In this document: in pieces, positions 513 to 63,493 of the stretch
Layout of the letters: each line of letters begins with the position of its first letter
Position numbering within the stretch: position 1 is the first letter of the stretch
Origin: an uncultured Aquitalea sp.
Lineage (GTDB): Bacteria > Pseudomonadota > Gammaproteobacteria > Burkholderiales > Chromobacteriaceae
Direction of reading: 5' to 3'
DNA length: 64,000 nucleotides
Assembly: GCF_945957525.1 (NCBI RefSeq)
Contig: NZ_CAMFLA010000012.1
Location: 1-64,000 of the forward strand
The notes under the pieces: model-generated
Told to the model about the DNA's origin: nothing
What the model saw: only the letters and a program-made list of their open reading frames with translations
The model's database searches: none
Made by a program: the position numbers and the translations under genes

Positions 513-1556
513 ATGTCCCAACCCCTGTTCGCCCAACGTCTGGTGGCCTGGCAACAAAGCTACGGCCGTCACGATCTGCCCTGGCAGGTGAGCGACCCTT
601 ATCGGGTGTGGCTGTCCGAGATCATGCTGCAGCAAACACAGGTGACCACGGTGCTGGATTACTACCAGCGCTTTCTGGCGCGTTTTCCCGATGTGGCGGC
701 GCTGGCCGCCGCGCCGGCGGAGGATGTGCTGGCCTTGTGGAGCGGCCTGGGTTACTACACCCGGGCCCGTAATTTGCATAAAGCCGCCATCATGGTGATG
801 GAGGTTTTCGGCGGCCAATTCCCTTCGGCCCGGGCAGAGCTGGAGCGCTTGCCCGGCGTGGGGCGCTCAACGGCGGCGGCCATCGCCGCCTTCTGCTTCG
901 GCCAACGCGAGGCCATTCTGGACGGCAATGTGAAGCGCGTGGCGACGCGCGCCTTTGGCGTGGACGGCTTTCCTGGCGAGAAAGCGGTGGAGAACCGTTT
1001 GTGGGCGCTGGTGGAGAGCCTGTTGCCCGAAGACGCGGCGGCGATGCCGGCGTACACCCAGGCCATGATGGACTTGGGGGCCACGGTCTGCACCCGTAGC
1101 AAGCCGGCCTGCACCGTCTGCCCGCTGGTGGCGGAATGCGTGGCTGCGCGAGAAGGTCGCCAGCAGGAATTGCCCACTCGAAAGCCGCGCGGGCCGCTGC
1201 CTACCCGCCATACCGTGATGATGATGGCGGTGCATCAGGGGCGCGTGCTGTTGCAGAGACGACCAGACAGCGGTATCTGGGGCGGCTTGTTGTCGCTGCC
1301 GGAAATGAGCGACTCGCTGGCGGTGGAGTCCTGGTTGCAAATGCATGGACAGGGCGATGTTTTGCCGGCCTGGCCGGAACTTGAGCACGTGTTTACGCAC
1401 TATCGTCTGATCATCACGCCCGTGCCGGTGCGCGTGGACAGCCTTGCCGATCCCGATGGCGGGGCGGCTGCCCTGCAATGGCTGGACTTGACCAAAGCGC
1501 TGGACGCCGGCTTGCCGGCCCCGGTAAAAAGGCTGCTTGGCAGGTGGTCTGCCTGA
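513..1556 (+). CDS. mutY: A/G-specific adenine DNA glycosylase MutY
   Basis: The 347-residue product removes adenine mispaired with 8-oxoguanine in base excision repair. Catalytic Glu36 lies in SEIMLQQTQV, the helix-hairpin-helix LPGVGRSTAAAIA at 113-125, and the catalytic Asp137 in ILDGNVKRV. The four cluster cysteines 193, 200, 203 and 209 have the C-x6-C-x2-C-x5-C spacing of the [4Fe-4S] loop. Residues from about 230 form the Nudix-like 8-oxoG recognition domain. The frame is open further upstream, but MSQPLFAQRLVAWQQ is the usual MutY N-terminus, so the ATG at 513 is chosen. A copy of the TTGGCCGAA word lies inside at 897-905, read as Phe-Gly-Gln on this strand. Confidence 0.96.
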   Translation: MSQPLFAQRLVAWQQSYGRHDLPWQVSDPYRVWLSEIMLQQTQVTTVLDYYQRFLARFPDVAALAAAPAEDVLALWSGLGYYTRARNLHKAAIMVMEVFGGQFPSARAELERLPGVGRSTAAAIAAFCFGQREAILDGNVKRVATRAFGVDGFPGEKAVENRLWALVESLLPEDAAAMPAYTQAMMDLGATVCTRSKPACTVCPLVAECVAAREGRQQELPTRKPRGPLPTRHTVMMMAVHQGRVLLQRRPDSGIWGGLLSLPEMSDSLAVESWLQMHGQGDVLPAWPELEHVFTHYRLIITPVPVRVDSLADPDGGAAALQWLDLTKALDAGLPAPVKRLLGRWSA

Positions 1557-1702
1557 ATAAACGCCGCCGAATCCCCCCGTGGCAAGGCCGGCCCCGCTTG
1601 CTGGCGAAACAGCTTGGCGCAGGGGTGTTTTTCAGCCGCAAAGCCCGCTTGAGGGCCGTTGTTTTCCTTGTTGATTGACGTTCGATCCGGGTAATTGTTG
1701 AT

Positions 1703-3907
1703 ATGGTTTCCGTAGTCCGTTCGATGGCCGATACCCTGGCCGACGCAGCCGATCCGCAACGTTGGCTGCAGCATCTGTCCGCCTCGCTCAGCGACGACGA
1801 TCGCCGTCTGCTGGCGCGCGCCTTCGACGAGGCCGCCGCGCTATACAAGGACAAGCGCCTGCCGTCCACCGGCGAAGACCTGTTCAGCCATGCCGTGTCT
1901 TCCGCCGCCATCGTCGCCGATCTCAATCTTCTGCCGGACGCTATTGCCGCCACCTTGCTGTTTGCCGTGCCGGATCATCGTCCGGACTGGCAGGAGTGGC
2001 TGGCCGCCGAGTTCGGCCCCACCATCACCGTGCTGGTGGACGGCGTGGGCCGCGTGCGCCGCATTACCGAGTTGGCGCGCATCGACAGGCTGGATACGCC
2101 TGAAGAGCGCGCCCGTCAGGCGGAAACCATGCGCAAGATGCTGTTGGCCATGGTGGAAGACATCCGCGTGGTGCTGATCAAGCTGGCTTGGCGCACACAG
2201 ACCATGCACTACCTGTCGCACGTCGAGGATGAGAGCATCCGTCGCGGCATTGCCGTGGAAACGCTGGAGCTGTTTGCCCCGCTGGCCAACCGCCTTGGCG
2301 TGTGGCAAATCAAGTGGGAGCTGGAAGATCTGGGCTTTCGCCACACCGAGCCGGACAGCTACAAGAAAATCGCCAAGCTGCTGGACGAACGCCGGCTGGA
2401 ACGCATCGATTACATCGAGCGCGTGCTGGAAACCCTGCGCAGCGAAATCAAGGCCGCCGGGGTCAAGTGCGAAGTGGCCGGCCGCCCCAAGCACATCTAT
2501 TCCATCTGGAAGAAGATGAAAAAGAAAAAGCTCGATTTTTCCGAGCTTTACGACATCCGCGCCGTGCGCATCCTGGTGGAGAAAATGCAGGATTGCTACA
2601 CGGCGCTGGGCATTATCCACAGCATGTGGCAGCCCATTCCCGGCGAATTCGACGACTACATCTCCCACCCCAAGGCCAATAACTATCGCAGCCTGCATAC
2701 GGCGGTGATCGGCCCGGAGGACAAGGCGCTGGAGGTGCAGATCCGCACCTTCGAGATGCACGAGCACGCTGAATTCGGCGTGGCAGCCCACTGGCGCTAT
2801 AAAGAAGGTGGCAAGGGCGACGCCCAGTACGAGGAAAAAATCTCCTGGCTGCGCCAGTTGCTGGACTGGCGCGAAGAAATGTCCGACCGCGAAGGTTTGG
2901 CCGAAGCCTTCAAGACCGAGCTGTTCTCCGACACCATTTATGTGCTGACGCCGCAAGGCCGCGTGCTGGCGCTGCCGCACGGCGCCACGCCCATCGACTT
3001 TGCTTACGCCATTCACTCCGGCCTGGGTCATCGCTGCCGGGGCGCCAAGGTGGAAGGGCAAATCGTACCCTTGTCCACGCCCTTGCAGAACGGCCAGCGG
3101 GTGGAAGTGATCACGGCCAAGGAGGGTGGCCCGTCGGTCAACTGGCTGCACGATGGCTGGGTGAAGAGCCATCGCGCCATCTCCAAGATCCGCCAGTACA
3201 TCCGTCTGCAAAACGCCGACACCGTGCGCGAGACCGGCAAGCAGTTGTTTGAGCGTGAGCTGGCGCGCCATCCGCATCTGCAACCCAACCTCAGTTCGCT
3301 GGCCGACAAGCTCGGCTACGCCAAGCTGGATGAGCTGTACGGCGCGATGGGGCATGGCGAGCTGACCGCCCGCGCGGTGAGCAACGCTATCGAAAGTTTC
3401 GCCCCGCCGCCGCCGGCCGACGTGGCGCCGGAGAGTCTGGTCAAGGCCAGCAAGGGCGCGCCGGACGCCGGCGGCATCCTGATCGAGGGCGTGGACAATC
3501 TGATGACCGTGCTGGCCAAGTGCTGCAAACCGGCTCCGCCGGACGCGGTGGTGGGCTTCGTCACCAAGGGGCGCGGCATCTCCATTCATCGCAGCAATTG
3601 CCTCACGCTCAAGCGGTTGTCGGCCGAAGCGCCGGAGCGCATGATCACCGCCGGCTGGGGCGAGCTGAAAAACAGCCTGTTCCCAATTGATATTGAAGTG
3701 GTGTCGATGGACAGGGCTGGGCTGTTGCGCGACATCTCCGATGTATTGTCGCGGGAAAAGCTCAATCTCATTGCCGTGCACACCCTGTCGCGCGACATGC
3801 GCGCCAAGATGCGTTTTACCGTCGAAGTGCGCCATGTGCAGGACATCAGCCGGGTACTGGCGCGCATGATGGAGCTGCCGGGCGTGACGGACGCCCGTCG
3901 CGTCTGA
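1703..3907 (+). CDS. relA: (p)ppGpp synthetase RelA
   Basis: The 734-residue product is a long RelA/SpoT-family enzyme that makes the stringent-response alarmone from ATP and GTP/GDP on stalled ribosomes. The order is an HD-like region (about 50-190), synthetase domain (about 240-400), TGS domain (about 405-470, starting DTIYVLTPQGRV) and C-terminal ACT domain (about 655-734). Two features mark it as RelA rather than SpoT. The hydrolase HD motif is degenerate, with LLFAVPDHRPDW where SpoT carries HD and ED residues, and the synthetase loop reads E315-F-D-D, the ExDD signature of monofunctional RelA. The stop codon directly touches the start of the Nudix gene. SpoT would have to lie elsewhere. 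Confidence 0.94.
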   Translation: MVSVVRSMADTLADAADPQRWLQHLSASLSDDDRRLLARAFDEAAALYKDKRLPSTGEDLFSHAVSSAAIVADLNLLPDAIAATLLFAVPDHRPDWQEWLAAEFGPTITVLVDGVGRVRRITELARIDRLDTPEERARQAETMRKMLLAMVEDIRVVLIKLAWRTQTMHYLSHVEDESIRRGIAVETLELFAPLANRLGVWQIKWELEDLGFRHTEPDSYKKIAKLLDERRLERIDYIERVLETLRSEIKAAGVKCEVAGRPKHIYSIWKKMKKKKLDFSELYDIRAVRILVEKMQDCYTALGIIHSMWQPIPGEFDDYISHPKANNYRSLHTAVIGPEDKALEVQIRTFEMHEHAEFGVAAHWRYKEGGKGDAQYEEKISWLRQLLDWREEMSDREGLAEAFKTELFSDTIYVLTPQGRVLALPHGATPIDFAYAIHSGLGHRCRGAKVEGQIVPLSTPLQNGQRVEVITAKEGGPSVNWLHDGWVKSHRAISKIRQYIRLQNADTVRETGKQLFERELARHPHLQPNLSSLADKLGYAKLDELYGAMGHGELTARAVSNAIESFAPPPPADVAPESLVKASKGAPDAGGILIEGVDNLMTVLAKCCKPAPPDAVVGFVTKGRGISIHRSNCLTLKRLSAEAPERMITAGWGELKNSLFPIDIEVVSMDRAGLLRDISDVLSREKLNLIAVHTLSRDMRAKMRFTVEVRHVQDISRVLARMMELPGVTDARRV

Positions 3908-4333: not shown

Positions 4334-4344
4334 TCGGCATAAAA

Positions 4345-5381: not shown

Positions 5382-5383
5382 TA

Positions 5384-5544: not shown

Positions 5545-5573
5545 GGTTGGCCGAAGCCCCGCTTCGGCCAACC
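5545..5573. repeat. Perfect inverted repeat of the GTTGGCCGAAGC word (uptake-sequence-like, terminator-like)
   Basis: GGTTGGCCGAAGC at 5545-5557 is followed after three bases (CCC) by its exact reverse complement at 5561-5573, then by TTGTTTT. The hairpin sits in the 235-bp gap between deoC and deoA and could act as a weak intrinsic terminator or attenuator. Its two arms are copies of a word found at least 26 times in the window. Core copies on the plus strand start at 2897, 5547, 7685, 10794, 12314, 13419, 21448, 25369, 29224, 32904, 41619, 43219, 43399, 45391, 50619, 62075 and 63203. Reverse-complement copies start at 897, 5563, 25806, 38385, 51683, 53719, 54778, 58656 and 59297. Confidence 0.8.
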
Positions 5574-6958: not shown

Positions 6959-8173
6959 ATGCAACGCGCTATCATTCTGATTCTGGACTCGCTGGGTATT
7001 GGCGCCGCCGCCGATGCCCCCCGTTTCGGCGACACCGGCAGCAATACGCTGGGACATATCGCCATGGAAGCGGCCGCGGGCAGGGCCGACAAGGGCCGCA
7101 GCGGCCCCTTGCGCTTGCCCAATCTGTCACGGCTGGGCCTGGGGCATGCCTGCCAGCTGTCTTCCGGATACTTTCCGGAAGGCATGGACAAGGCCGAACC
7201 CATCGCCGCCTATGGCTACGCCAAGGAGATTTCCAGCGGCAAGGACACCCCGTCCGGGCACTGGGAAATCGCCGGCGTGCCGGTGCTGTTCGACTGGGGA
7301 TATTTTACCGACAAGGAAAACAGCTTCCCGCCAGCTTTGCTGGATGAGATTACCGAACGCGCCGGCCTGGTCGGCTATCTGGGCAATTGCCACGCCTCAG
7401 GCACCGAGATTCTCGATCGCCTGGGCGAGGAACACATGCGAACCGGCAAGCCGATTTTCTATACCTCGGCCGACTCGGTATTCCAGATTGCCTGTCATGA
7501 AGAGACCTATGGCCTTGAGCGCCTGTACGAACTGTGCCGCATCACCCGCGAGGCGCTGGCGCCCTATAACATCGGCCGCGTGATCGCTCGCCCCTTCGTC
7601 GGCGACGGCAAGGGGCGCTTCAGCCGCACCGGCAACCGCAAGGACCTCGCAGTGCCGCCGCCATCTCCCACCGTGTTGCAAAGGTTGGCCGAATACGGGG
7701 GCAGGGTCGTGTCCATCGGCAAGATCGCCGACATTTACGCCCATGTCGGCATCACGGAAAAGCACAAGGCCACCGGCTTCGATCAGTTGTGGGACGCCAC
7801 GCTGACGGCGATGGCGGCCAGCGACGAGCGCGCCATCATCATGGCCAATTTTGTTGATTTCGACTCCAGCTACGGTCATCGCCGCGATGTGGCGGGCTAT
7901 GCCAGCGCGCTGGAAGAGTTCGACGCCCGCCTGCCGGAAGTCATGGCTGCGCTGGGGCCGGACGACATCCTGATCTTGTCCGCCGACCATGGCTGCGACC
8001 CCACCTGGGCCGGTACCGATCACACCCGCGAACACATTCCGGTGTTGTGCTATGGCCCCGGCGTGCCGGCCGGCGCCATTGGCGAGCGCGCCACCTTCGC
8101 CGACATCGGCCAGACCGTGGCCCGTCATCTGGGCTTGCCGCCCATGGACTACGGCGTCGACTTTCTGCACTGA
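6959..8173 (+). CDS. deoB: Phosphopentomutase DeoB
   Basis: The 404-residue metalloenzyme of the alkaline-phosphatase superfamily converts (deoxy)ribose-1-phosphate to the 5-phosphate. Metal-binding signatures are visible at the N-terminus ([15 protein letters not shown]), in the middle ([14 protein letters not shown]) and near the C-terminus ([21 protein letters not shown]). The family's threonine near [15 protein letters not shown] is present. A CCGGAGAG ribosome-binding site precedes the ATG. It links phosphorolysis (deoA, deoD) to the aldolase (deoC), completing the pathway in one cluster. A TTGGCCGAA word is present at 7685-7693. Confidence 0.97.
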
Positions 8174-9157: not shown

Positions 9158-9162
9158 GAAGT

Positions 9163-10427: not shown

Positions 10428-11471
10428 ATGATCAAGGTGGGCATCGTCGGCGGCACCGGTTACACCGGGGTCGAACTCTTGCGTCTTCTGGCCGGGCACC
10501 CTGAAGCCCAGGTCGTGGCCGTGACCTCCCGCAAGGAGGCCGGCATGAAGGTGGCCGAGATGTTCCCCAGCTTGCGAGGTCGCGTGGATGTGGCTTTTTC
10601 CGCGCCGGACGACACGCCGCTGACAGCTTGCGACGTCGTGTTCTTCGCCACTCCGCACGGTGTGGCCATGGCGCAAGCGCGCGAACTGCTGGCCGCGGGC
10701 GTCAAGGTGATCGATCTCGCTGCCGACTTCCGTCTGAAAGACCCGGCCGTGTTCCAGCAGTGGTATGCCATGGAACATGGCTGTACCGACCTGTTGGCCG
10801 AAGCGGTGTACGGCCTGCCGGAAGTCAACCGTGAAGCCCTGAAGACCGCGCGAGTGGTGGGCATGGCCGGCTGCTACCCTACAACCGTGCAACTGGGTTT
10901 GCTGCCCTTGCTGGAAAACGGCGCGCAACTGGTGGATACCCAGACCCTGATTGCCGACTGCAAGTCCGGCGTGTCGGGCGCAGGCCGCAAGGCCGAAGTG
11001 GGTGCCTTGCTGGCCGAAGCGGGCGACAATTTCAAGGCGTACGCCGTGAAAGGCCATCGTCACTCACCGGAAATCGAGCAGGGCTTGTCCGCCATCCACG
11101 GCGGCCCGGTCAAACTCACTTTCGTGCCGCACCTGACGCCGATGATCCGCGGCATCCACTCCACGCTATACGCCCGCATCAAGCCGGAAGCGATGGACAC
11201 GGACTTCCAGGCCCTGTTTGAGCAGCGCTACGCCGACGAGCATTTTGTCGATGTGCTGCCGGCGGGCAGTCACCCGGAAACCCGCAGTGTGCGCGGATCC
11301 AACACTGTGCGCATTGCCGTGCACCGTCCGGGCAATGGCGACCTGCTGATCGTGCTGGTGGTGGAAGACAACCTGGTGAAGGGTGCCTCTGGCCAAGCGG
11401 TGCAAACCATGAATCTGATGTTCGGTCTGCCGGAAAACGCTGGCCTGGACATCGTGCCGCTGATGCCCTGA
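10428..11471 (+). CDS. argC: N-acetyl-gamma-glutamyl-phosphate reductase ArgC
   Basis: The 347-residue enzyme reduces N-acetylglutamyl-phosphate to the semialdehyde with NADPH, the third step of arginine synthesis. The N-terminal nucleotide loop [18 protein letters not shown], the catalytic Cys149 in [12 protein letters not shown] and the histidine of [11 protein letters not shown] are present. Length is normal. An AAGGAAG site precedes the ATG. It stands alone between the S9 gene and erpA rather than in an arg operon. The word TTGGCCGAAGC occurs at 10794, encoding Leu-Ala-Glu-Ala. Confidence 0.97.
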
Positions 11472-12004: not shown

Positions 12005-12874
12005 ATGAACAAGCTGCCGCCCATCGTGTTGCCCAAAGTGGAATTCAATCGCGAATTCGCTTTCAGCGACCAGGATTTCGAACGTATCCGCAAGCTGATT
12101 TACAAAGAAGCGGGCATTTCGCTCAACCCTTCCAAAAAGGACATGGTGTATGGCCGGCTGGTGCGGCGCATCCGCGAGCTGAAGCTGACCAGTTTTGCCG
12201 CCTATGTCGATTTTCTCGAGTCGGTCAGCGGCAAGCGCGAGTTCGAGCAGTTCGTCAACGCGCTCACCACCAATCTCACCTTCTTTTTCCGTGAAGAGCA
12301 TCACTTCCCCTTGTTGGCCGAACACCTGAAGAGCCGCGCCGCCGCCGGCGCCAGCGAGTTGTCCATCTGGTGCGCGGCCTCTTCCACCGGCGAAGAGCCT
12401 TACTCGCTGGCCATTACCGCGCTGGAAGCCTTCCCCAGCGGTCACAAGCCGGCCATCAGCATTATCGCCACCGATCTGGATACACTGGTGCTGGAAACCG
12501 GCCGCAAAGGCATTTACGCCGCCGAGAAAGTGGCCAAGCTGCCGGCCGGCTATGCCGCCAAGTACTTTGACAAGTTGCCGGACGGCAACTTCCAGGCCAA
12601 GCAGGTGCTGCGCAGCATGATCACCTTCCAGCGGCTGAATCTGATTGACGCGACGTGGTCTTTGCGCAAGCAGTTCGACGCCATTTTCTGCCGCAACGTG
12701 ATGATTTATTTCGATCGCGATACACAGTTTGGCGTGTTGAAGAAGTTCGCGCCGCTGCTCAAGCCGGACGGCTTGTTGTTTGTCGGCCATTCGGAAAACT
12801 TCTACTTCGCCAGCGACTATTTCCAGTTGCGCGGCAAAACCGTGTACCAGCACGCGGCGAAAAAGCAGGGATAG
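12005..12874 (+). CDS. cheR: CheR-type protein-glutamate methyltransferase (orphan)
   Basis: The 289-residue protein has the CheR layout: an all-alpha N-terminal domain (about 15-90) and a SAM-binding domain. The SAM motif is IWCAASSTGEEPYSLAI, with TDLDTLVLETGRKGIY and FDAIFCRNVMIYFDRDTQ following as in the family. It would methylate glutamates of chemoreceptors. No other chemotaxis gene lies in the window and terminators bracket it, so it is transcribed alone. It could serve a main chemotaxis system encoded elsewhere or a separate receptor set. Confidence 0.92.
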   Translation: MNKLPPIVLPKVEFNREFAFSDQDFERIRKLIYKEAGISLNPSKKDMVYGRLVRRIRELKLTSFAAYVDFLESVSGKREFEQFVNALTTNLTFFFREEHHFPLLAEHLKSRAAAGASELSIWCAASSTGEEPYSLAITALEAFPSGHKPAISIIATDLDTLVLETGRKGIYAAEKVAKLPAGYAAKYFDKLPDGNFQAKQVLRSMITFQRLNLIDATWSLRKQFDAIFCRNVMIYFDRDTQFGVLKKFAPLLKPDGLLFVGHSENFYFASDYFQLRGKTVYQHAAKKQG

Positions 12875-12989: not shown

Positions 12990-14246
12990 ATGAAGGTTGT
13001 GGTGCTGGGCGCGGGGGTGGTGGGGGTGTCTACTGCCTGGTTTCTGGCGCGCGAGGGGCACGAGGTGGAGGTGGTGGACCGTGCTGACGGGGTCGGGCGG
13101 GAAACCAGTTTTGCAAATGGCGGGCAGATTTCCGTCAGCCAATCCGAACCCTGGGCACAGCCTGGCGCGCCGTGGAAAGTGCTCAAGTGGTTGCTGCGCG
13201 ACGATGCGCCCTTGTTGTTCCGCCCGCGATTGGAGCCCGCCCAGTGGCGTTGGTGTCTGCAGTTTTTGCGGGAATGCCTGCCGGGGCGCTTTCAGCACAA
13301 TATGTCGCAGATGTTGGCGCTGGGTTTGTACAGCCGGCAAACGCTGCAAGACTTGCGCCGGGAGCTGGGCCTGGCCTACGACCAGCAGACGCGCGGCATC
13401 GTCACCTTGCTGCGCACGTTGGCCGAAGCGCGCGAGGCGGAGCGCATCGCCCGCCGCATGCAGGCTTTCGGCATCGACAAGCAGTTGATCACGCCTGACG
13501 AGTTGGCGCGGATTGAGCCCGCGCTGGCCGCTATGGCCCCGCAATTGTCCGCCGCCACTTATTGCGCTTCGGACGAGTCGGGCGACGTGCACCTGTTTAC
13601 CCGTCAATTGGCCGAGCGCGCCGCCGGCCTGGGCGTGCGCTTCCGCTTCAATACCCGCGTCAATGCGCTGGAGAGTGATGGACGGCAAGTGGCCGGCGTA
13701 TCCATCACCCAGCCGGACGGCCATTTCGCCAGTCTGCGCGCCGATGTCTACGTGCTGGCCTTGGGCAGTCATTCGCCCTTGCTGACCGCGCCGCTGGGGC
13801 TGCGCTTGCCCATTTATCCGGCCAAGGGCTACTCGGCCACACTCGCGGTACGGGAAGGCGCTGTGGCGCCCTTGGTCAGTATTACCGATGAAGCCAACAA
13901 GATTGTCGTCTCCCGTCTTGGCGGCCGCCTGCGCGTGGCTGGCACCGCCGAGTTGGCGGGGTATTCCAGCTCGCTGAACCCGGTGCGTTGCGCAGCCTTG
14001 ATCCGGCAGGCGCGGACCTTGTTGCCCGAAGCGGCTGATTGGGACGCGCCCGAATTCTGGACCGGCCTGCGCCCGGCAACGCCGGGCAATGTGCCGCTGA
14101 TTGGCCGCAGCGCTTGTCCCAACCTCTATCTTAATACCGGCCACGGCACGCTGGGCTGGACGGAGGGCCCGGGCAGCGGGCGCGCGCTGGCCGAACTGAT
14201 ATCCGGCCGCCGACCGGAGATTCCTTTTTCCTTTCTGGGTGTTTGA
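12990..14246 (+). CDS. dadA: D-amino acid dehydrogenase, small FAD subunit
   Basis: The 418-residue flavoprotein oxidatively deaminates D-amino acids and feeds electrons to the respiratory chain at the inner membrane. The N-terminal Rossmann fold [20 protein letters not shown] and the DadA-typical [20 protein letters not shown] are clear. The C-terminal FAD contact is [19 protein letters not shown]. Length matches E. coli DadA. No alanine racemase gene (dadX) follows; the next gene is purT. A ribosome-binding site AGAGAAAGG precedes the start. Related paralogues act on other D-amino acids, so the exact substrate is open. Confidence 0.92.
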
Positions 14247-14317: not shown

Positions 14318-15526
14318 ATGCAAATCGGTACCCCTCGCAGCCCTTCCGCACTGCGCGTCATGTTGCTGGGCAGCGGCGAACTGGGCAAGGAAGTGACCAT
14401 CGCCCTGCAACGTCTGGGCGTGGAAACCATCGCCGTTGACCGCTATGCCGGCGCGCCGGCCATGCAAGTGGCGCATGAAAGCCATGTGATCAACATGTCC
14501 GACGCCGCGGCCTTGCGCAGCCTGGTCGAGCAGGTGAAGCCGCACCTGATCGTGCCGGAGATCGAGGCTATTGCCACTGAAGAACTGTTGCGGATCGAGG
14601 CGGACGGCATTGCCGAGGTCATCCCCACTGCGCGCGCCGCCAATCTCACCATGAATCGCGAAGGCATTCGCCGTCTGGCGGCGGAAGAGCTGGGCCTGCC
14701 CACTTCGCCCTATGCTTTCGCTTCTTCACTGCAGGAGTTGCAGGCAGCCATCGATGCCGGCATCGGCTACCCCTGCCTGGTGAAGCCGGTGATGTCTTCC
14801 AGCGGCAAGGGCCAGAGCCTGCTCAAGGGGCCGGACGATGTGGCCCGCGCCTGGGAATACGCGGTGAGCGCTGGCCGGGTGGACAAGGGTCGCGTGATTG
14901 TCGAGGGCTTTATCGATTTTGATTACGAAATTACCCAACTGACCGTGCGTGCCAGCGATGGCGAGGGCGGCATCGCCACTCATTTCTGCGCGCCAGTGGG
15001 CCATCTGCAACAAAGCGGCGACTATGTGGAGAGCTGGCAGCCACAGCCGATGAGCGAACTGGCCTTGCTGCGATCCCGCGAAATGGCCAAGGCGGTGACT
15101 GATGCCTTGGGTGGCCGGGGTCTGTTTGGCGTGGAGCTGTTCATCAAGGGCGATCAGGTGTGGTTTTCCGAGGTCAGCCCGCGTCCGCACGATACCGGGC
15201 TGGTAACGCTGGCCACGCAGCGTTTCTCGGAGTTTGAGTTGCACGCGCGCGCCATTCTCGGCTTGCCGGTGGACGCCGGGCTGCGCACCGCCGGCGCTTC
15301 GGCCGTGATTTACGGCGGCATGGAAGCGCAAGGCATTGCCTTTGAGGGTGTGGCTGAAGCCTTGGCCGTGCCTGGCGCGGATTTGCGCCTGTTCGGCAAA
15401 CCCGAGAGCTTCGTGCGCCGCCGCATGGGCGTGGCCGTCGCTTATGCCGACGATGTCGATACCGCGCGCGAGCGGGCGCGGCTGGCGGCCTCGCTGGTGA
15501 AGCCGGTAACGGGCAAGGGGGCGTAA
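14318..15526 (+). CDS. purT: Formate-dependent GAR transformylase PurT
   Basis: The 402-residue ATP-grasp enzyme makes formylglycinamide ribonucleotide from GAR, formate and ATP, a folate-independent route for the third step of purine synthesis. Visible landmarks are the N-terminal [18 protein letters not shown], the ATP-grasp segments [13 protein letters not shown] and [19 protein letters not shown], and [13 protein letters not shown]. The ATG at 14318 has GGAG 8 bases upstream and gives the standard N-terminus; the open frame extends further upstream without homology. The stop codon touches the GTG of the globin gene. Confidence 0.96.
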
Positions 15527-21447: not shown

Positions 21448-21456
21448 TTGGCCGAA
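21448..21456 (+). repeat. Intergenic copy of the TTGGCCGAA word
   Basis: GGTTGGCCGAAG sits in the short gap between the plsY terminator and the 3' end of the deacetylase gene. Placement beside a terminator parallels the copies at 5547/5563, 38385 and 45391. Confidence 0.75.
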
Positions 21457-45373: not shown

Positions 45374-45390
45374 TGTCCTGCTGGGGATGG

Positions 45391-45399
45391 TTGGCCGAA
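45391..45399 (+). repeat. Intergenic copy of the TTGGCCGAA word
   Basis: GGTTGGCCGAAGCG lies between the terminator at 45351-45373 and the icd stop codon (45409), again directly beside a terminator. Confidence 0.75.
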
Positions 45400-45408
45400 G
45401 CGCGGCGC

Positions 45409-50312: not shown

Positions 50313-52094
50313 ATGCAGATACCCGAATACTACAACCCGGTGGCCAGGGACATTGCCCAGGCCCTGATAGACGGTTTCAACAAGCACTACCGGCTGTTTC
50401 GCGAGTGTAATCAGAAGGCCCGTCAGTTGTTTGACGATGCCGACTGGCAAGGCGTGCAGAAAGCCATTCGCGACCGCATCCAGTTTTATGATGATCGCGT
50501 CAGCGAGACCGTGGCGCGGTTGAACACGGAGTTCCACGCCGACCTGCTGGACGATGATATCTGGCAGCAGGCCAAGCTGTATTTCATTGGCTTGCTGACC
50601 AACCACAAGCAGCCGGAGTTGGCCGAAACCTTCTTCAACTCGGTGTTCACCCGCATGCTGCACCGGGACTACTTCAACAACGATTTCATCTTTATCCGGC
50701 CGGCCATTTCCACCGAGTACATCGAGTCCGACCCCCCGTCCTACCGCAGTTACTACCCGGCCAAGAGCAGCCTGCGCGCCGTGACCAAGCGCATCATCCG
50801 CGATTTTGGCTGGCGGCGGCCCTTCGCTGATCTCAACCGCGATACCGCCTTTCTGCTGCGCTATGCGCATGAGTTTTTGCAGGGCATCTGGCCCAAGCCG
50901 GAGGCCAATTTCCAGATTCAGGTGCTGTCGTCGCCTTTTTACCGCAACAAGACGGCTTATATCTTTGGCAAGGTAGTGAATGGCGGCAATAGTTATCCCT
51001 TCGCCATTCCGGTGCTGCACGACGCGGCTGGGCGGTTGTATCTGGACACCATTTTGCTGGAACCCTGGCGTATCGGCGTGTTGTTTTCTTTCAGCCGGGC
51101 TTACTTCCTGGTGGATATGGAAGTGCCGTCTGGCTACGTGCAGTTTTTGCGCGGCATGTTGCCCAGCAAGACCAAGGCCGAGCTGTACACCATGCTGGGC
51201 TTGCAAAAGCAGGGCAAGAACACCTTCTACCGCGATTTCATGCAGCATCTGCAGCACTCCGACGATCAGTTTGTGATTGCGCCAGGCATTCGCGGCTTGG
51301 TGATGCTGGTGTTCACCTTGCCGTCCTACCCCTACGTGTTCAAGCTGATCAAGGACGTGTTCGGCGGCCCGAAGGAAATGGATCGCGCCACGGTAAAGCA
51401 AAAGTACCGCTTGGTGAAACGGCACGACCGGGTAGGGCGCATGGCGGACACCCTGGAGTTTTCCAACGTGGCCTTCCCGCGCCATCGTTTCACTGACGAG
51501 CTGATTGGCGAGTTGCGCGCGCTGGCGCCTTCGATGATGGAGGAGAGCGAGGGCAGCATCGTTATCAAGCATTTGTATATCGAGCGGCGCATGAAACCGC
51601 TCAATCTGTACCTGATGAGTTGCGATGCCGCTGAGAAGGAGCGGGTGGTTCGCGATTATGGTTTGGCCATCAAGGAGCTGGCTTCGGCCAACATCTTCCC
51701 CGGCGACATGCTGTTCAAGAATTTCGGCGTTACCCGCTACGGTCGGGTGATTTTTTACGACTACGACGAAATCGAATACATGACGGACTGCAACTTCCGC
51801 AGGATACCGCCCGCGCCCAATCCGGAGATGGAGATGTCCGGCGAGGTGTGGTACCCGGTGGCGCGCAATGATGTGTTTCCCGAAGAGTTCGGCACCTTCT
51901 TGCTGGGCGACCCCGTCGTGCGCAAGACCTTCCTCAAATACCATCGGGACTTGCTGGACGCCGGCTTCTGGCAGCAAAGGCAGCAGCGCATCCGCGAGGG
52001 TTTTATCGAAGATTTCTACCCCTATCCGGAAGAGATGCGTTTTGTGAACCGTTTTGCCAGCGCGGGGCAGGGCATGGAGAGGATTCCGGCCTGA
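50313..52094 (+). CDS. aceK: Isocitrate dehydrogenase kinase/phosphatase AceK
   Basis: The 593-residue bifunctional enzyme phosphorylates and dephosphorylates Icd, directing flux into the glyoxylate shunt. The regulatory N-terminal half ([20 protein letters not shown] on) and the kinase-like C-terminal half are complete, including the ATP loop [18 protein letters not shown] and catalytic segment [19 protein letters not shown] with [21 protein letters not shown] site precedes the ATG. It is not next to aceA/aceB as in E. coli but near its substrate gene icd. Strong terminator downstream. Confidence 0.96.
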
Positions 52095-53364: not shown

Positions 53365-55950
53365 TTATTCAGTCATCTTTTTCAGCTGGTACACAAGATC
53401 CAGTGCCGCGCGCGGCGTCAGGTCGTCCGGGTTGAGGTCCTGCAGTGTTTCCACCGCCGGATGCGGTTCGGGTTCCGCTGCTGCCATGGGTGCCGGCGCG
53501 GCGAACAGGTCCGGCTGGACGCGAGCGGCGGACTGGTTTTCCAGTTCGGTGAGGTAGCGGCGCGCTTCGCGGATAACCTTGCCGGGCACACCGGCCAACT
53601 GCGCCACCGCCAGACCGTAACTCTGGCTGGCGGGGCCGTCTTCCACATGGTGCAGGAAGACGATGCGGTCCTTGTGTTCCACTGCGGACAAATGCACGTT
53701 GGCCACCGACGGATACTGTTCGGCCAACGTGGTGAGCTCGAAGTAGTGGGTGGCGAACAGTGTGTAGCTGCGGTTTTTCTCGATCAGGGCGCGGGCGATG
53801 GCGGAGGCCAGCGCCAGACCGTCGAAGGTGGAGGTGCCGCGACCCACTTCGTCCATCAGCACCAGCGAGTGCTCGCCCGCGTTGTTGAGGATGTTGGCGG
53901 TTTCGGTCATCTCCACCATGAAGGTGGAACGGCCGCCGGCCAGATCGTCCGAGGCGCCGATGCGGGTGAAGATGCGGTCCACCGGGCCGATGACGGCCTC
54001 TTCCGCCGGTACGAAGCTGCCCACGTGCGCCATCAGGGTGATGAGCGCGTTTTGGCGCATATAGGTGGATTTACCGCCCATATTGGGGCCGGTGATCAGC
54101 AGGAGCTTGCGTTGTTCGCCAAGACGGGTGTCGTTGGCGATGAAGCGTTCCACCTCGGCCTCCACCACCGGGTGGCGGCCGCCGATGATGTCCAGCCTCA
54201 CCTCGCGCACGAAGCGCGGTTCGACATAGTTGTGGGTGCTGGCGCGCTCGGCGAAGGCCGACAGCACGTCCACGCCGGCCACGGCCTGGGCGATGAGCTT
54301 GAGGTCGGGGATATGCGGGGCCAGTTGGTCCAGCAGGCTTTCGTACAGCTGCTTCTCCAGCGCCAGCGAGCGGTCCTGCGCCGACAGCGCCTTGTCTTCG
54401 AAGGTTTTCAGTTCCGGCGTGATGTAGCGTTCGGCGTTTTTCAGCGTCTGGCGGCGGCGGTAATCGTCCGGCACGTTGTCGGATTGCGCTTTGGAGACTT
54501 CGATATAGAAGCCGTGCACGCGGTTGTATTCCACCTTGAGGGTGCTGATGCCGCTGCGTTCGCGTTCGCGCGCTTCCAGCGCCAGCAGGAATTCGCCGCA
54601 GTCGGTCTGGATGGCGCGCAGTTCGTCCAGCTCGCTGTTCAGGCCCTGATTGATGACGCCGCCGTCGCGCAGAAAGGTGGCGGGCTCGGGCAGGATGGCG
54701 CGGGTCAGCAGTTGCTCCACCGGCGATTCGTCCGGCAGGACGCGCGACAACTCTTGCAATAACGGCGCGCCGCAGGCTTCGGCCAACCTTTTAACCGCCA
54801 GCAGCGATTTGAGCGAGTCGCGCAGCGCGGCGAGGTCGCGCGGGCGGGCGCTGCGCAGGGCGATGCGGGCGGTGATGCGTTCGATGTCGGCCACTTCGGA
54901 CAGTGCTTCGCGCGCGTCCTGGTGGCGATCAAGCAGGCTGCGCACCGCTTCCAGCCGGCGGGCCAGCTTGTCTTGCTGGCGGATGGGGTGGTGCAACCAG
55001 TGACGCAGCAGGCGGCTGCCCATGCTGGTGGCGCAAGTGTCCAGCAGGGACGCCAGTGTGGGCGAGGCTTCGCCGCGGATGGTTTCAGTCAGTTCCAGAT
55101 TGCGGCGGGTGGCGGCGTCCATGCGGATGATGTCGCCGGTGGTTTCCACCGTCAGCGCGCTGATGTGCGCCGGGTTCACGCTTTGCGTGGCCTTGACGTA
55201 TTCCAGCAGCGCGCCGGCCGCCCCCACGGCCACCGGCAGGGTGTCCGCGCCGAAGCCGGCCAGGTCGCGGGTGCCGAAATGGCGGGTCAGCGACAGAGTG
55301 GCCGATTCGCTATCGAACTGCCAGGGCGGCAGTTTTTTCCTGGGGCCGGCGATATTGTCCAGCGCGGCCAGGCCGGTGTCGTCCGGCATGAGCAGCTCGG
55401 CGGGTTTGAGGCGTTCCAGCTCGCTGGTGAAATCTTCCACGCCGGCTTGCATCAGGCGGAATTCGCCGCTGGCCAGGGACAGCCAGGCCAGGCCCAGCAC
55501 ACCCTTCACCATATTGACCGCCAGCACCAGGTTGTCGCGTTTATCGTCCAACAGGGCGGCGTCGGTCAGCGTGCCGGGGGTGACGATGCGCACTACCTTG
55601 CGCTCAACCGGGCCCTTCGCCAGGGCGGGGTCGCCGATCTGTTCGGCAATGGCGACCGATTCTCCCATTTTCACCAGCCGGGCCAGGTAGTTTTCCGCCG
55701 CGTGGTAGGGGATGCCGGCCATCTTGATGGGGGTGCCGGCGCTGGCGCCGCGCGCGGTAAGGGTGATGTCCAGCAGGCGGGAGGCTTTTTCCGCATCTTC
55801 GTAGAACAGTTCGTAGAAGTCGCCCATGCGATAGAACAGCAGCTTGTCGGCGTGCTGGCTTTTCAGCGCGAGATACTGCTGCATCATTGGCGTGTGTTGC
55901 GCCTTGGGCTGCTTTTTGTCTTCTTGATCTGTAGTGAATTCGTTAGCCAA
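53365..55950 (-). CDS. mutS: DNA mismatch repair protein MutS
   Basis: The 861-residue protein recognises mismatches and starts methyl-directed repair. The mismatch-binding motif is [16 protein letters not shown] (the conserved F-x-E), and the ATPase has Walker [14 protein letters not shown], the signature [20 protein letters not shown] and Walker [19 protein letters not shown]. The length matches MutS1. The C-terminal tail has the Pro/Glu-rich linker and a short dimerisation helix ([12 protein letters not shown]). Two TTGGCCGAA words lie within (53719 and 54778). Confidence 0.97.
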
Positions 55951-58205: not shown

Positions 58206-59012
58206 ATGGCGATGTGGCGAAAAGCGGCGAGACTGCTGGCAGCCGGTTTGCTGTGCCTGAATGGCACTGCTGTGGCCGGCGCGGTGTGCGCGCCGGATTT
58301 GCGCTTTGCCGCCGATGAGATCGGCAGTTTCTGGCATGCGGCGCCGGGCGGCTACGGCGGCATCGACAAGGAGGTGATGGAGGAGGTGGCCAAGCGCCTG
58401 CATTGCCGGCTGTCGCTGGAGTCGGATTCGGTGGTGCGGCTGATCAAGCGGCTGGAAGAGGGCAGCGTGGATGTGGCCGGACACAAGTTTTACTCCGCCG
58501 AGCGGGAGCGGGTGGCCTGGATGCTGCCCTATGTGCAGGATCGCAATGTGGCGCTGGTGTCGTCGGCCATCGATGTGCGCGATGCGGAAAGCTTCATTGC
58601 CAAGCCCGGATTGCGGTTGGGGGTGGGACGCTCCTTTGCCTATGGTTCGTCGCGCTTCGGCCAACTGATCAAGCGGCTGGATGCGGCCGGCCGGGTGGAG
58701 TTCGTGGCGGATAGCCAGCAGATGTACCGCCTGCTGCTGGCGGGCCGGGTGCAGGCCATCATCACCACGCCGCCCGCCTACCATCTTGAGTTGCCTCCCG
58801 GCATGGTGGGCAGCCGTTATCTGGTGCAGGACTGGGTGCCGGATCAGGAGCAGGCCGCGCTGTACCTGATGTTGTCCCGCCAGCGTTTCAATGAAACGGA
58901 AAAGCGCAGGCTGGAGGCGGTGCTGGCCGCCATGCGCAAGGACGGCACCATGTTGCGCATTCTGGAGAAGTACATGGGGGAGCGAGACGCCCCCGCGCTG
59001 ATGCTGCGTTAG
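58206..59012 (+). CDS. Periplasmic solute-binding protein, family 3-like
   Basis: The 268-residue protein has a signal peptide (about residues 1-25, ending TAVAGAVCA) and the two-lobed layout of family 3 binding proteins: LRFAADEIGSFWHAAPGGYG, then GIDKEVMEEVAKRLHC and DVAGHKFYSAERERVAWMLP. Such proteins deliver amino acids or small molecules to ABC transporters or sensors. No permease gene follows, so it may be an orphan or partner with a distant system. AGGATGAGCC before the ATG supports the start. A second ATG is two codons downstream. Confidence 0.78.
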   Translation: MAMWRKAARLLAAGLLCLNGTAVAGAVCAPDLRFAADEIGSFWHAAPGGYGGIDKEVMEEVAKRLHCRLSLESDSVVRLIKRLEEGSVDVAGHKFYSAERERVAWMLPYVQDRNVALVSSAIDVRDAESFIAKPGLRLGVGRSFAYGSSRFGQLIKRLDAAGRVEFVADSQQMYRLLLAGRVQAIITTPPAYHLELPPGMVGSRYLVQDWVPDQEQAALYLMLSRQRFNETEKRRLEAVLAAMRKDGTMLRILEKYMGERDAPALMLR

Positions 59013-59228: not shown

Positions 59229-60554
59229 ATGGCATCTTCTGGTTTTTCTCCCCTTGTCCGCCTGACGGCGGCGGCAGCCCTGACGGGCGTCATGGCTTCG
59301 GCCAACGCAGTGACGGAAATCACTTTCTGGCATTCCATGGATGGTGCGCTGGGCGACAAGGTGAACAGCATCGCCAGCCAGTTCAATGCGTCGCAGAAAG
59401 AGTACAAGGTGGTGCCGGTGTACAAAGGCCAGTACGACGAGTCGCTGGCAGCCGCCATCGCCGCGTATCGCAGCGGCAATGCACCGGACATCGTGCAAGT
59501 GTTCGAGGTGGGCACCGCTACCATGATGCAGGCCAAGAAGGCCGTGAAGCCGGTATGGCAACTGATGGCGGAAAGCGGCGAAAAGTTTGATGAAAAAGCC
59601 TTTATCCCGGCGGTGGCTGGCTACTACGCCGATGCCAAGACCGGCCATCTGATTTCCATGCCGTTCAACAGTTCCACTCCGGTGCTGTATTACAACCGCG
59701 ACGCTTTCAAGAAGGCGGGCCTGCCCGACGCGCCGCCCAAGACCTGGCCGGAATTGGCCGCCGCCGCCGCCAAGCTCAAGGCCAGCGGCCTTAGTTGTGG
59801 TTACAGCACCGGTTGGCAAGGCTGGGTGTTGCTGGAGAATTTCAGCACCTGGCACAACCTGCCTTACGCCTCGTTGGACAACGGCTTTGGTGGCAGCAAG
59901 GCAGTATTGCAGTTCAACAGCCCGCTGCACGTGAAGCACATCGAATTTCTGCAGAAGATGGCCAAGGACGGCACCTTCACCTATGCCGGCCGCAAGGATG
60001 AGGCCAGCGCCAAGTTCTACAGCGGCGAGTGCGGCATCATGACCGGCAGCTCCGGCTCGCTGGCCAATATCCGCAAGAACGCCAAGTTCGCCTTCGGCAT
60101 GGGCATGATGCCGTATTACCCGGATGTGAAGGGCGCGCCGCAAAACGCCATCATCGGCGGGGCCAGCCTGTGGGTGATGGGCGGCAAGAGCGCGGCCGAA
60201 TACAAGGGCGTGGCCCGCTTCCTCAAAATGGTGTCCAGCCCGGCGGTGGCCGCCGACTGGCATCAAAGCACCGGCTATCTGCCGGTGGTGAGCGCCGCGT
60301 ATGAGCTGACCCGCCAACAAGGCTTCTACGACAAATTCCCCGGTGCCGACATCGCCACCCGTCAGATGATGAACAAGCCGCCCAAGCCGTATACCCGCGG
60401 CCTGCGCCTGGGTTATATGCCGCAGATCCGCACCGTGGTGGACGAAGAGCTGGAAAGCGTGTGGAACGGCCAGAAAGCGCCCAAGGCCGCGCTGGACAGC
60501 GCCGTGGCGCGCGGTAATGAGTTGCTGCGTCGTTTCGAGAAAACCGCCGACTGA
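59229..60554 (+). CDS. ugpB: sn-Glycerol-3-phosphate-binding protein UgpB
   Basis: The 441-residue periplasmic protein has a signal peptide ending near residue 25 ([17 protein letters not shown]). The mature N-terminus, the segment [40 protein letters not shown] and [19 protein letters not shown] match E. coli UgpB. It captures glycerol-3-phosphate and glycerophosphodiesters during phosphate starvation. The ATG at 59229 has GGAGGCTTCGT before it. It heads ugpBAECQ, the E. coli gene order. Confidence 0.95.
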
Positions 60555-60668: not shown

Positions 60669-61556
60669 ATGATCATGCAAAACCGGATCCGGTTTCCCGG
60701 CGGCTGGCTGGGATTTCTGCTGATGTTGCCGCAACTGGCCATCACTGTGCTGTTTTTTGTCTGGCCAGCGGCGCAAGCCCTGTGGCAGTCCACGCAGTCG
60801 CAAGACCCCTTCGGCTTGGCCACGCGCTTTGTCGGCGTGGACAACTTCAGCGCGCTGTTTCAGGACCCGCTGTATCTGGGCACGGTCAAGACTACCTTGC
60901 TGTTCAGCGCGCTGGTGACGGCGCTGGGGATGGGTTCGGCCTTGCTGTTGGCGGCCATGGTGAATCAGGTGCGCTTCGGCAAACGTTTCTATCAGACGGT
61001 GCTGATCGCGCCCTACGCCATTGCGCCCTCCATCGTGGCAGTGCTGTGGTTGTTCCTGTTCAATCCTTCGCTGGGCTGGATCAGCTATCTGCTGCGAGGC
61101 GCGGGCTATGAATGGAACCACGCGCTCAACGGCGGTCAGGCGCTGGCGCTGGTAGTGATGGCCTCGGCCTGGAAACAGGTGAGCTACAACTTCCTGTTCT
61201 TCTACGCCGGCTTGCAAGCCATACCCGCATCTTTGATAGAGGCGGCCGCCATGGATGGGGCCGGGCCGCTGCGGCGCTTCCGCGACCTGGTGTTGCCGCT
61301 GTTGTCGCCCACCAGCTTCTTCCTGCTGGTGGTGAACCTGGTGTACGCCTTCTTCGACACCTTTGCCGTGGTGGACGCCGCCACCGGCGGCGGGCCGGGC
61401 AAGTCCACGGAAACCCTCATCCTCAAAGTGTATCTGGAAGGCTTCAAGGGTCTGGATCTGGGTAGCTCCGCCGCCCAGTCCGTGGTGCTGATGGCCATTG
61501 TCGGCCTGCTGACGGTCATCCAGTTCCGCTATGTAGAACGAAAGGTGCAGTACTGA
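60669..61556 (+). CDS. ugpA: Glycerol-3-phosphate ABC transporter permease UgpA
   Basis: The 295-residue inner-membrane permease has six hydrophobic segments and the MalF/UgpA-type EAA loop [20 protein letters not shown] contacting the ATPase. A second in-frame ATG two codons later is an alternative start. The 114-bp gap from ugpB is larger than the overlaps that follow. Its TGA overlaps the ugpE ATG. Confidence 0.94.
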
Positions 61557-62398
61557 TGATGGTGGAAAACCGCAAAGGGCTGAACCTGCTCTGTCACGCG
61601 CTGCTGGCGCTGGGCATGCTGGCGGTGGCCTTTCCCCTGTACTTGATGCTGATGGCGGCCACACAAAGCGCCGAGCAAGTGACGGCGGTGCCCTTGTCCT
61701 TGCTGCCGGGCGGCCATCTGCTGGAAAACCTGAGTCATGTGCTGGCTTCGCCCGACGGCGGCCTGGCGGTGCCACTATGGCGCACGCTGGCCAACAGCCT
61801 GGTGATGGCGCTGGTGATTGCCGTGGGCAAGATCGTTATTTCCTTCCTGTCGGCCTTTGCTATCGTCTGGTTTCGCTTTCCCCTGCGGCAGGCCGGTTTC
61901 TGGCTGATCTTCGCCACCTTGATGTTGCCGGTGGAGGTGCGCATCTTCCCCACGGTGGAGGTGGTGACGCAACTGGGGTTGATCAACAGCTACACCGGGC
62001 TGACGCTGCCCTTGATTGCCTCGGCCACAGCCACCTTCCTGTTTCGCCAGTTCTTTCTCACCCTGCCGCCGGAGTTGGCCGAAGCGGCGCGGGTGGACGG
62101 CGCGGGGCCCTTGCGCTTCATGCTGGATATCGTGCTGCCGCTCTCGCGCACCAATATCGCCGCGCTGTTCGTCATTACCTTCATCTATGGCTGGAACCAG
62201 TATCTGTGGCCGCTGCTGGTGACGCACGATCCGGCCATGTCTACGGCGGTGATCGCCATCAAGGGCATGCTGGGTGAGGGCGCGGTGCAATGGCATCTGG
62301 TGATGGCCACCGCCTTGCTGACCCTGATGCCGCCGCTGGCGGTGGTGATGCTGATGCAACGCTGGTTCGTCAAAGGGCTGGTGGACAATGAAAAATAA
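61556..62398 (+). CDS. ugpE: Glycerol-3-phosphate ABC transporter permease UgpE
   Basis: The 280-residue second permease has six hydrophobic segments and the EAA loop [32 protein letters not shown] encodes part of this loop (62075). The ATG overlaps the ugpA stop by one base, so translation is coupled. Confidence 0.94.
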
Positions 62399-62410
62399 GG
62401 ATGTGGAATC

Positions 62411-63493
62411 ATGGCGACACTGAGCCTGAAACAACTGGCCAAGCGCTACCCCGGCGCGGAGCGCGACGTGCTGACCGGCATTGATGTGGATATCGCAGAT
62501 GGCGAGTTCGTCGTGATCGTCGGCCCTTCCGGCTGCGGCAAATCCACCCTGCTGCGCATGGTGGCCGGGTTGGAAAGCACCGAACGGGGAGAGATCCTGC
62601 TGGATGGCCGTTGCGTCAATGCGCTGGAGCCCAAGGACCGCGACATGGCCATGGTGTTCCAGAATTACGCGCTCTATCCACACATGAGCGTGGCGGAGAA
62701 TATGGCTTACGCGCTCAAGATACGCGGCTTGCACAAGGCCGCCATCGCCGAGCGCATTGGCCGTGCCGCCGCCATTCTGGAGCTGGACGCGCTTTTGCAG
62801 CGCAAGCCGCGCGAGCTGTCCGGCGGCCAGCGCCAACGCGTGGCGATGGGGCGCGCCATTGTGCGCGAGCCGGCCCTGTTCTTGTTTGACGAGCCATTGT
62901 CCAATCTGGACGCGCGTCTGCGCGGACAGATGCGGCTGGAAATCCAGCGCCTGCATCGTCGCCTCGCCACCACCAGCCTCTACGTGACGCACGATCAGGT
63001 GGAGGCCATGACGCTGGCTGATCGCGTCATCGTCATGAATCAGGGGCGGGTAGAGCAGGTGGGCGCGCCGGACGACATTTACGAGCGGCCTGCCTCGCTG
63101 TTTGTGGCCGGCTTCATGGGCGCGCCGGGCATGAACCTGCTGGAGGCCACGGTGGATGCCGATGGCCGGCGCGTGCTGCTGGGCGACGGGGCGGCGCTGC
63201 GCTTGGCCGAAACGCGGACTGATCTGGCCGGCAAGCCTCTGTCCGCCGGCGTTCGCCCGGAACATCTGGAGGCCGTTGGCGAGGAGGAAGCGGATGTCGT
63301 GATGCATGTGGAAAGCGTCGAATTGCTGGGAGCGGACAATTACGTCTATGGTATGTTGTCCGGCCAGGCGGTCGCCGCGCGCGTACCGCATGGGCTGAGA
63401 CCGATAGCCGGCAGCCGGCTGCCGCTGCGGCTCAAGCCGTCATCCCTGCACCTGTTCGACAAAACCACGCAAAGGAGAGTGAGCGATGTCTGA
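62411..63493 (+). CDS. ugpC: Glycerol-3-phosphate ABC transporter ATPase UgpC
   Basis: The 360-residue MalK-type ATPase has Walker [15 protein letters not shown]-loop [13 protein letters not shown], signature [14 protein letters not shown], Walker [13 protein letters not shown] and the H-loop THDQ. The C-terminal 120 residues form the MalK-like regulatory (TOBE) domain. It powers uptake with UgpA/UgpE. It overlaps ugpQ by 8 bp. Confidence 0.95.

Follow-up and report, generated by a model that had tools for sequence, protein, structure and literature searches.

What is the short word that recurs throughout the 64,000-nucleotide stretch of DNA analysed here (the window), which lies on a contig of an uncultured Aquitalea sp. 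of the family Chromobacteriaceae? A preliminary description of the window had proposed that the word behaves like a DNA uptake sequence (DUS). This proposal is supported by its copy number, its occurrence on both strands, its independence of codon use, its scarcity in divergent spacers and in genes with low GC content at third codon positions (GC3), its dialects, its in-place change and a ComP homologue. Judged from the sequences compared, the best explanation of the whole is that the word is a DUS with a ComP-type pilin as its likely receptor, and we consider this very probable. Four names are used below: the core 9-mer TTGGCCGAA, the main 12-mer GTTGGCCGAAGC, the 10-mer of the AA dialect GTTGGCCGAA, and a second word, GTTTGCCGAA.

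Abundance of the word and codon use

The window contains 26 copies of TTGGCCGAA (mean 0.93 and maximum 3 in dinucleotide shuffles) and 14 copies of GTTGGCCGAAGC (0.03 in shuffles). All 26 cores lie at the positions and on the strands first reported for them, and the 12-mers, then put at about 14, are also where they had been placed. No 10-mer of the window is more frequent than GTTGGCCGAA, and among the 9-mers only plain GCC/GGC runs outnumber TTGGCCGAA. The GC content of the window is 61.5% instead of the approximately 64% given earlier, a difference that alters nothing. The genome containing the window (G000; 4,045,770 bases, 4.05 Mb, in 35 contigs) carries TTGGCCGAA 735 times on the forward and 762 times on the reverse strand, as compared to 42 and 50 for the reversed control, and GTTGGCCGAA 670 + 698 = 1,368 times (reversed control, 9 + 12 = 21). 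Detailed statistics were obtained from 464,000 of the 4,045,770 bases (400 kb in 20 stretches, plus the window), in which 405 genes were called by a simple codon-score script and 84% of the sequence is coding. This sample holds 168 copies of GTTGGCCGAA, of which 127 lie in genes (0.33 per kb) and 41 between them (0.55 per kb; P = 0.006); the gene starts are approximate, so part of the intergenic copies may be coding.

A favoured spelling of Leu-Ala-Glu could make the word a codon-usage or protein-motif artefact, and 77 of the 127 coding copies are indeed in frame as xLAE. However, within-gene synonymous-codon shuffling predicts only 9.5 of the 127 coding copies (standard deviation 2.5, maximum 17, 100 runs), and the earlier argument that codon use is an insufficient cause holds in this 464-kb sample. 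Leu-Ala-Glu is written as TTG-GCC-GAA (TTGGCCGAA) 86 times versus 9.6 expected, while CTG-GCC-GAA (CTGGCCGAA) is depleted, with 21 copies versus 45.5 expected; the window has five copies of the latter, the number first estimated. Two readings on the other strand that the preliminary description had pointed out, Phe-Gly-Gln as TTCGGCCAA (19 versus 4.7 expected) and Ser-Ala-Asn as TCGGCCAAC (27 versus 3.3 expected), are both enriched, and the intergenic copies likewise speak against an artefact. Instead of clustering in one protein family, the copies are spread over many unrelated genes. The synonymous shuffles and the other reading frames rule out a codon-use artefact, to which we assign a negligible probability. 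The word also seems to push on protein sequence, because its three tripeptides (LAE, FGQ, and SAN) occur at 1.85 to 2.13 times the composition prediction, as compared to 0.95 to 1.21 for permuted controls; Val-Gly-Arg, a less common reading, shows no enrichment (1.01).

Placement and orientation of the copies

The copies in the window are distributed as follows.

895..906 (-), main word GTTGGCCGAAGC, mutY-like gene
2897..2905 (+), core TTGGCCGAA preceded by T instead of G, relA/spoT-family gene
5545..5573 (+), inverted word pair (5546-5557 on +, 5561-5572 on -), after deoC-like gene
7685..7693 (+), core word, deoB-like gene
10793..10804 (+), main word, argC-like gene
12314..12322 (+), core word, cheR-like gene
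13418..13429 (+), main word, D-amino acid dehydrogenase-like gene
21448..21456 (+), core word, intergenic, convergent called genes either side
25369..25377 (+), core word, coding
25804..25815 (-), main word, coding
29224..29232 (+), core word, opposite strand to surE-like gene
32904..32912 (+), core word, acyl-CoA ligase/acetyltransferase-like gene
38385..38393 (-), core TTGGCCGAA preceded by C, intergenic
41619..41627 (+), core word, opposite strand to MFS transporter-like gene
43218..43229 (+), main word, LysR-like gene
43398..43409 (+), main word, LysR-like gene
45390..45401 (+), main word, intergenic, convergent called genes either side
50619..50627 (+), core word, isocitrate dehydrogenase kinase/phosphatase-like gene
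51681..51692 (-), main word, same gene as the 50619 copy
53719..53727 (-), core word, mutS-like gene
54776..54787 (-), main word, mutS-like gene
58654..58665 (-), main word, coding
59295..59306 (-), main word, ugpB-like gene
62074..62085 (+), main word, coding, gene directly upstream of ugpC-like gene
63203..63211 (+), core TTGGCCGAA preceded by C, ugpC-like gene

The pair at 5545-5573 has a perfect 13-bp stem, a 3-nt loop and a T-rich tail (fold -26.6 kcal/mol, z -4.0); by terminator scan and fold, it is an intrinsic-terminator-like hairpin of textbook form. Two DNA-repair genes carry words, the mutY-like gene (246-1556) one and the mutS-like gene (53365-55950) two; DUS are common in genome-maintenance genes.

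The preliminary description had placed the word next to terminators. In part this stands: about a quarter of the copies (41 of 168) are intergenic, and of the 40 intergenic copies counted in G000, few lie in divergent spacers (3 versus 9.8 expected, P = 0.009), with a lean to convergent ones (8 versus 3.9 expected, P = 0.053). Close inverted pairs, however, number only four in the 464 kb, one of them coding. Even spacing, for which a test had been proposed at the outset, was not seen; the gaps fit an exponential distribution (coefficient of variation 0.88, P = 0.51), i.e., spacing is random. The lowest-GC3 tenth of the genes (39 genes, 28 kb) has approximately 0.07 words per kb, or about 2 versus 9.7 expected (P = 0.004), low GC3 being a rough proxy for foreign DNA.

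A short, non-palindromic word abundant within genes might also be a Chi-like recombination hotspot or a chromosome-orienting motif similar to the FtsK-orienting polar sequences (KOPS). Such motifs should be biased in orientation along a replichore, but the word is balanced between strands (54:60) over a 320-kb stretch of contig C1 in which GC skew keeps one sign (negative in all eight 40-kb parts), and a 75:25 bias is excluded (P < 1e-6). The differences between dialects at one shared site and the paucity of copies in divergent spacers and low-GC3 genes argue in the same direction. We rejected the Chi-like reading and regard both motif types as very unlikely. The inverted pairs among the copies could instead point to a mobile repeat, similar to repetitive extragenic palindromes (REP) or miniature inverted-repeat transposable elements (MITE), or the word could be the site of a regulatory protein. 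Conservation around the 10-mer drops off within about 3 bases, however; where coding sites could be compared, substitutions set the word-free orthologues apart; and most copies are genic, with divergent spacers poor in them. We rejected a mobile repeat on these grounds, and the probability of either reading is very small.

Dialects and distribution in the Chromobacteriaceae

The distribution of the word was determined in 61 genomes taken as Chromobacteriaceae (the family set, with genus groups g1 to g10) and in an even sample of 386 genomes of the same order outside the family; 10-mers were ranked in samples of 100 kb per genome (400 kb for G000). A set of genus-level dialects, aaGGTTGGCCG(AA/AG/CA), is present in 23 of the 61 family genomes. 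GTTGGCCGAA (AA) is borne by G000, g2, g3, g6, and g10; GTTGGCCGCA (CA) occurs in 1,871 to 2,057 copies per whole genome in all five g5 genomes counted; and GTTGGCCGAG (AG) has 1,590 and 1,940 copies in the two g4 genomes. The top 10-mer is GTTGGCCGAA in G000, G010, G011, G014, and G018, GTTGGCCGAG in G021, and GTTGGCCGCA in G013; no such word leads in G001, G016, G017, and G032 of the family or in G040 and G043 of other families. A 5' A-A-G tendency is common to the dialects, with A at -2 in 50-83% of copies (7 of 7 genomes profiled).

The pooled pattern AGGTTGGCCGMR is found 88 to 1,173 times in the 23 word-bearing genomes (G000, g2 3/3, g3 2/2, g4 2/2, g5 13/13, g6 1/1, and g10 1/1) and 2 to 22 times in the other 38 (the nine other g1 genomes, g7 19/19, g8 6/6, and g9 4/4). 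Because this pattern pools dialects, the CA dialect itself is established for 5 of the 13 g5 genomes. Two g8 genomes, G024 and G033, have a slight excess of GTTGGCCGAA (62 and 45 copies versus controls of 13 and 11), which may be what is left of a system since lost. The 386 genomes outside the family showed nothing comparable: GTTGGCCGMR reaches a maximum of 223 (control 98) in them, versus 1,304 to 3,107 in the eight word-bearing family genomes of the same search; a few outside genomes are four- to fivefold over control at low counts (e.g., G288, 139 versus 31).

Inverted pairs occur in six of the seven word-bearing samples, G010 being the exception, and hold 29% of the words in G021 and 26% in G013. 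In these two genomes, overlapping dyads such as TGCGGCCAACGTTGGCCGCA and CTCGGCCAACGTTGGCCGAG, in which two facing words are joined at AACGTT, recall the dyads of Simonsiella described in PMC3630211. A search of named genomes for the inverted-pair pattern returned ten stretches, all from Pseudogulbenkiania (P. subflava, P. ferrooxidans 2002, and a metagenome-assembled genome) or Gulbenkiania mobilis, both genera of the Chromobacteriaceae, Neisseriales; the 8-kb piece of P. ferrooxidans 2002, which was chosen for a pair, carries five words (two pairs and a single one).

A second word is private to G000 among the 61 family genomes. GTTTGCCGAA differs from the main word by one base and has 616 copies in G000 (control 8) and at most 66 in any of the other 60. 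The two words are not segregated into blocks (90 switches versus 97, P = 0.15). The copies of GTTTGCCGAA in the window are:

15392..15401 (-)
16722..16731 (-)
18227..18236 (+)
36417..36426 (-)
37157..37166 (+)
44165..44174 (+)
60975..60984 (-)

The single unreported dialect first suspected is therefore more than one, namely three genus-level dialects plus this private word; that it is unreported agrees with the literature searched.

Change of the word in place

We compared 30 loci around the end of rpoB (a 4.7-kb region; 13 word-bearing rows and 17 word-free rows, 14 of the latter from the family and 3 from other families), with the spacer and the next gene assigned to rpoB-rpoC from their position. 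In 10 of the 13 word-bearing rows, covering three dialects, the spacer after rpoB contains the word; none of the 17 word-free rows has it there.

AA in the spacer: G010, G011, G014, G018, G019
CA in the spacer: G013, G022, G031
AG in the spacer: G021; G012 has AG on one strand and AA on the other
Spacer without the word: G000, G020; G026 is not covered

Across the 4.7-kb region, 31 of 33 words in the word-bearing rows match the dialect of their own genome (two copies of GTTTGCCGAA aside), and a single dialect word occurs across the word-free rows. At coding sites, substitutions such as CTGGCCGAG distinguish the word-free relatives (numbers are small). Word positions are little kept between genera, with 2 of 8 G000 words found in G010 and 1 of 3 in G018 (small overlaps). 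In the rpoB-rpoC tree, AG (2 rows) and CA (3 rows) each form one clade, AA is scattered, and word-bearing lineages lie on either side of the family root. Presence and absence require at least five changes on this tree, three of them forced by well-supported branches. This is consistent with a word that was present in the ancestor and lost in g9, g8, g7, and g1; the tree allows gains as well. The tree does not clearly group G000 with the g1 rows.

A ComP-type pilin as candidate receptor

The import protein ComEC (PF03772) was found in all 37 family genomes searched, word-free ones included. When pilins were compared with solved structures, ComP came out as the best match of a single type, in word-bearing G019 (E = 1.5e-13) and G000 (contig C9, E = 2e-10) as well as in word-free G032 (E = 1.6e-7) and G001 (E = 8.5e-7); for three other pilins, ComP was not among the matches at E up to 1. 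A shared stretch reads ALLENAHFMEKFYLQNGRFKQTSTKWPSLP in the ComP structure 2m3k, which we take to be meningococcal, and ALLDNAHFLERWYSEKGTFKQSSTAWPSLP in G019. The comP-type gene of G000 is the last of a cluster that contains a GspH/FimT-like gene, an unmatched open frame, a prepilin-motif gene, and a PilX-like gene. A profile built from nine word-bearing orthologues detects the ComP-type pilin in every one of the 15 word-bearing family genomes examined (122 to 214 bits) and no clear one in g9 (4/4; best 64-73 bits, taken as other pilins). A profile of two Neisseria ComP fragments, applied to the fetched loci only, yields scores of 33 to 60 bits for 14 word-bearing genomes, as compared to 13 to 51 bits for seven word-free ones, with no match in the G016 and G024 loci. 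A pilin exclusive to word-bearing genomes was looked for without success; Pfam PF16732 (ComP_DUS) matches pilins in both kinds. The prepilin motif TIGR02532, searched in six word-bearing genomes only, revealed minor-pilin clusters that differ among them.

The window has a prepilin cluster of its own (15944-19599, minus strand), which encodes a PF16732 pilin, a GspH/FimT-like protein, two further prepilin-motif proteins, and a 601-aa protein. It sits in the longest gap between main words (13.4-21.4 kb), with two copies of GTTTGCCGAA inside; the adjacent gene adds another copy, at 15392. Relatives of its pilins are found in other genera, and among the fetched g1 pilins only in G000; the PF16732 pilin (19192-19599) is not among the matches of the two-fragment Neisseria profile.

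Several observations weigh against a DUS read by a ComP-type pilin. Nine genomes placed in the genus of G000 (g1) lack the word. The nine-orthologue profile (A1) favours word-bearing genomes by construction and still matches word-free g1 (9/9, 151-166 bits), g7 (5/5, 105-142 bits), and g8 (4/4, 84-116 bits); with the Neisseria profile, word-free G015 reaches 50.7 bits, above 9 of the 14 word-bearing genomes. Because most word-free relatives examined keep a ComP-type pilin, this pilin alone is not sufficient to explain the pattern of the word. Relaxed selection on comP in word-free genera was not seen: the ratio of nonsynonymous to synonymous substitution rates (dN/dS) is no higher there than in word-bearing ones (0.09-0.49 versus 0.18-0.54, some pairs being saturated). 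Inverted pairs hold only 4% of the G000 words (400-kb sample) and none of 23 in G010. Positions +6 to +8 of all dialects read CCG, unlike the CTG of the Neisseriaceae DUS. Moreover, two reports give both disulfides of Neisseria ComP as essential for DUS binding (PMC12061091, PMC12616744), and 14 of the 15 word-bearing orthologues have two cysteines, that of G000 three, and none four. Purifying selection on comP in word-free genera probably reflects a role in the pilus. Relative to rpoB, comP dN is 14-50 in g1, 17-33 in g8, 8-16 in g7, and 8-29 in word-bearing genera, and a faster change of comP in g1 and g8 is possible.

Some of these points would equally suit a DUS whose receptor is another minor pilin, for example of the FimT/GspH type: the ComP-type pilin is not confined to word-bearing genomes, its cysteine pattern is unlike that of Neisseria ComP, and a FimT/GspH-like gene lies within the same G000 cluster. 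A pilin resembling Legionella FimT is proposed as the receptor of the Pasteurellaceae uptake signal sequence (USS) in PMC12616744. However, among the pilins compared, only the ComP-type one finds its best matches in a pilin with proven word specificity, and we consider a different receptor less likely.

A model for the spread of the word

The uptake-sequence-like system described here, genome-wide and with dialects in a third family, is real; we infer its function and receptor. With a ComP-type pilin as the likely receptor, a minor pilin of the type IV pilus would bind DNA containing 5'-(AA)GGTTGGCCGAA(G) outside the cell, and pilus retraction would pull word-bearing DNA in. ComEC-dependent import and recombination could then spread word-carrying alleles through the population. 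Because of this spread, copies would accumulate where a few substitutions create the word cheaply, as in Leu-Ala-Glu, Ser-Ala-Asn, and Phe-Gly-Gln stretches, and they may also build up downstream of genes, two facing copies doubling as a terminator. Drift of receptor specificity between genera would give rise to the dialects.

In PMC3630211, eight DUS dialects, all with a CTG core, are described; no obvious DUS is reported for Laribacter, Lutiella nitroferrum 2002 (now P. ferrooxidans, and taken to be the strain of the 8-kb piece above), Pseudogulbenkiania NH8B, and two Chromobacterium genomes; and the origin of DUS is placed after the split from Chromobacterium violaceum. CTG is given as invariant in PMC12061091, and two families are given as the only ones with uptake sequences in PMC12616744. 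That no DUS is known for this group, as had been remarked from the outset, agrees with the searched literature, including the five genomes just named. Among the listed matches from open-licence papers, no title or abstract describes it as a DNA uptake sequence, but it may be listed in Table S1D of PMC3630211, a list of over-represented 10-mers of the 'no DUS' genomes that lies outside this search.

The present data call into question both the view that the CTG core is invariant and the view that DUS arose only after the split from C. violaceum, which served as the outgroup for inferring this later origin. We tentatively raise the possibility that uptake-sequence specificity predates the Neisseriaceae: an ancestor shared with the Chromobacteriaceae may have read such a word with a ComP derived from a FimT/PilX-type minor-pilin operon, the CTG core being either one of two alternatives (CTG or CCG) or a later state, with several losses, including that in C. 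violaceum. With a patchy distribution that fits repeated loss, three or more dialects, their differences at a site common to the genomes, and a diverged ComP, this third family offers a natural experiment on a receptor and thousands of genomic sites changing together. Strains from culture collections (G. mobilis DSM 18507 and P. subflava DSM 22618) are among the named hosts, which makes direct testing possible.

Comparison with known uptake systems

The proposed system of the Pasteurellaceae, USS/ComN, also has a short uptake word enriched genome-wide, dialects, and a proposed minor-pilin receptor, but its word is unrelated, its hosts are gammaproteobacteria, and its candidate receptor is FimT-like. 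The USS core is AAGTGCGGT; it does not lead in the seven word-bearing samples, whose top 10-mers are GTTGGCCGAA, GTTGGCCGAG, or GTTGGCCGCA.

The Neisseriaceae DUS is closer. Both are words of 10-12 nt that occur on both strands, hundreds to thousands of times per genome, in intragenic and terminator-forming copies, together with a ComP-type minor pilin and ComEC; both have species-group dialects that follow phylogeny, here in the AG and CA clades, with AA scattered. In DUS numbering, G1, G4, C6, G8, A9 or C9, and A10 of the word are bases found in known dialects. Besides the CCG core, the differences are a G at +5, a G at +10 in the g4 word, and a host family, the Chromobacteriaceae, outside the Neisseriaceae; unlike Neisseria ComP, the orthologues here mostly lack the extra cysteine pair, and comP of G000 closes a cluster that includes FimT-like and PilX-like genes. 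Aligned without gaps to DUS 12-mers, AGGTTGGCCGAA matches AGGTCGTCTGAA and AGGCTGCCTGAA at 9 of 12 positions and the other five compared at 6 to 8. Common descent of the word and DUS is suggested by this likeness and not proven, because at least 9 matches are reached by 237 of 20,000 shuffled words if offset and strand are left free, and by 97 of 20,000 if the offset is fixed. The main word and GTTTGCCGAA in G000 also resemble kingDUS and simDUS of Simonsiella, where two words with a difference at one position likewise co-exist in a genome.

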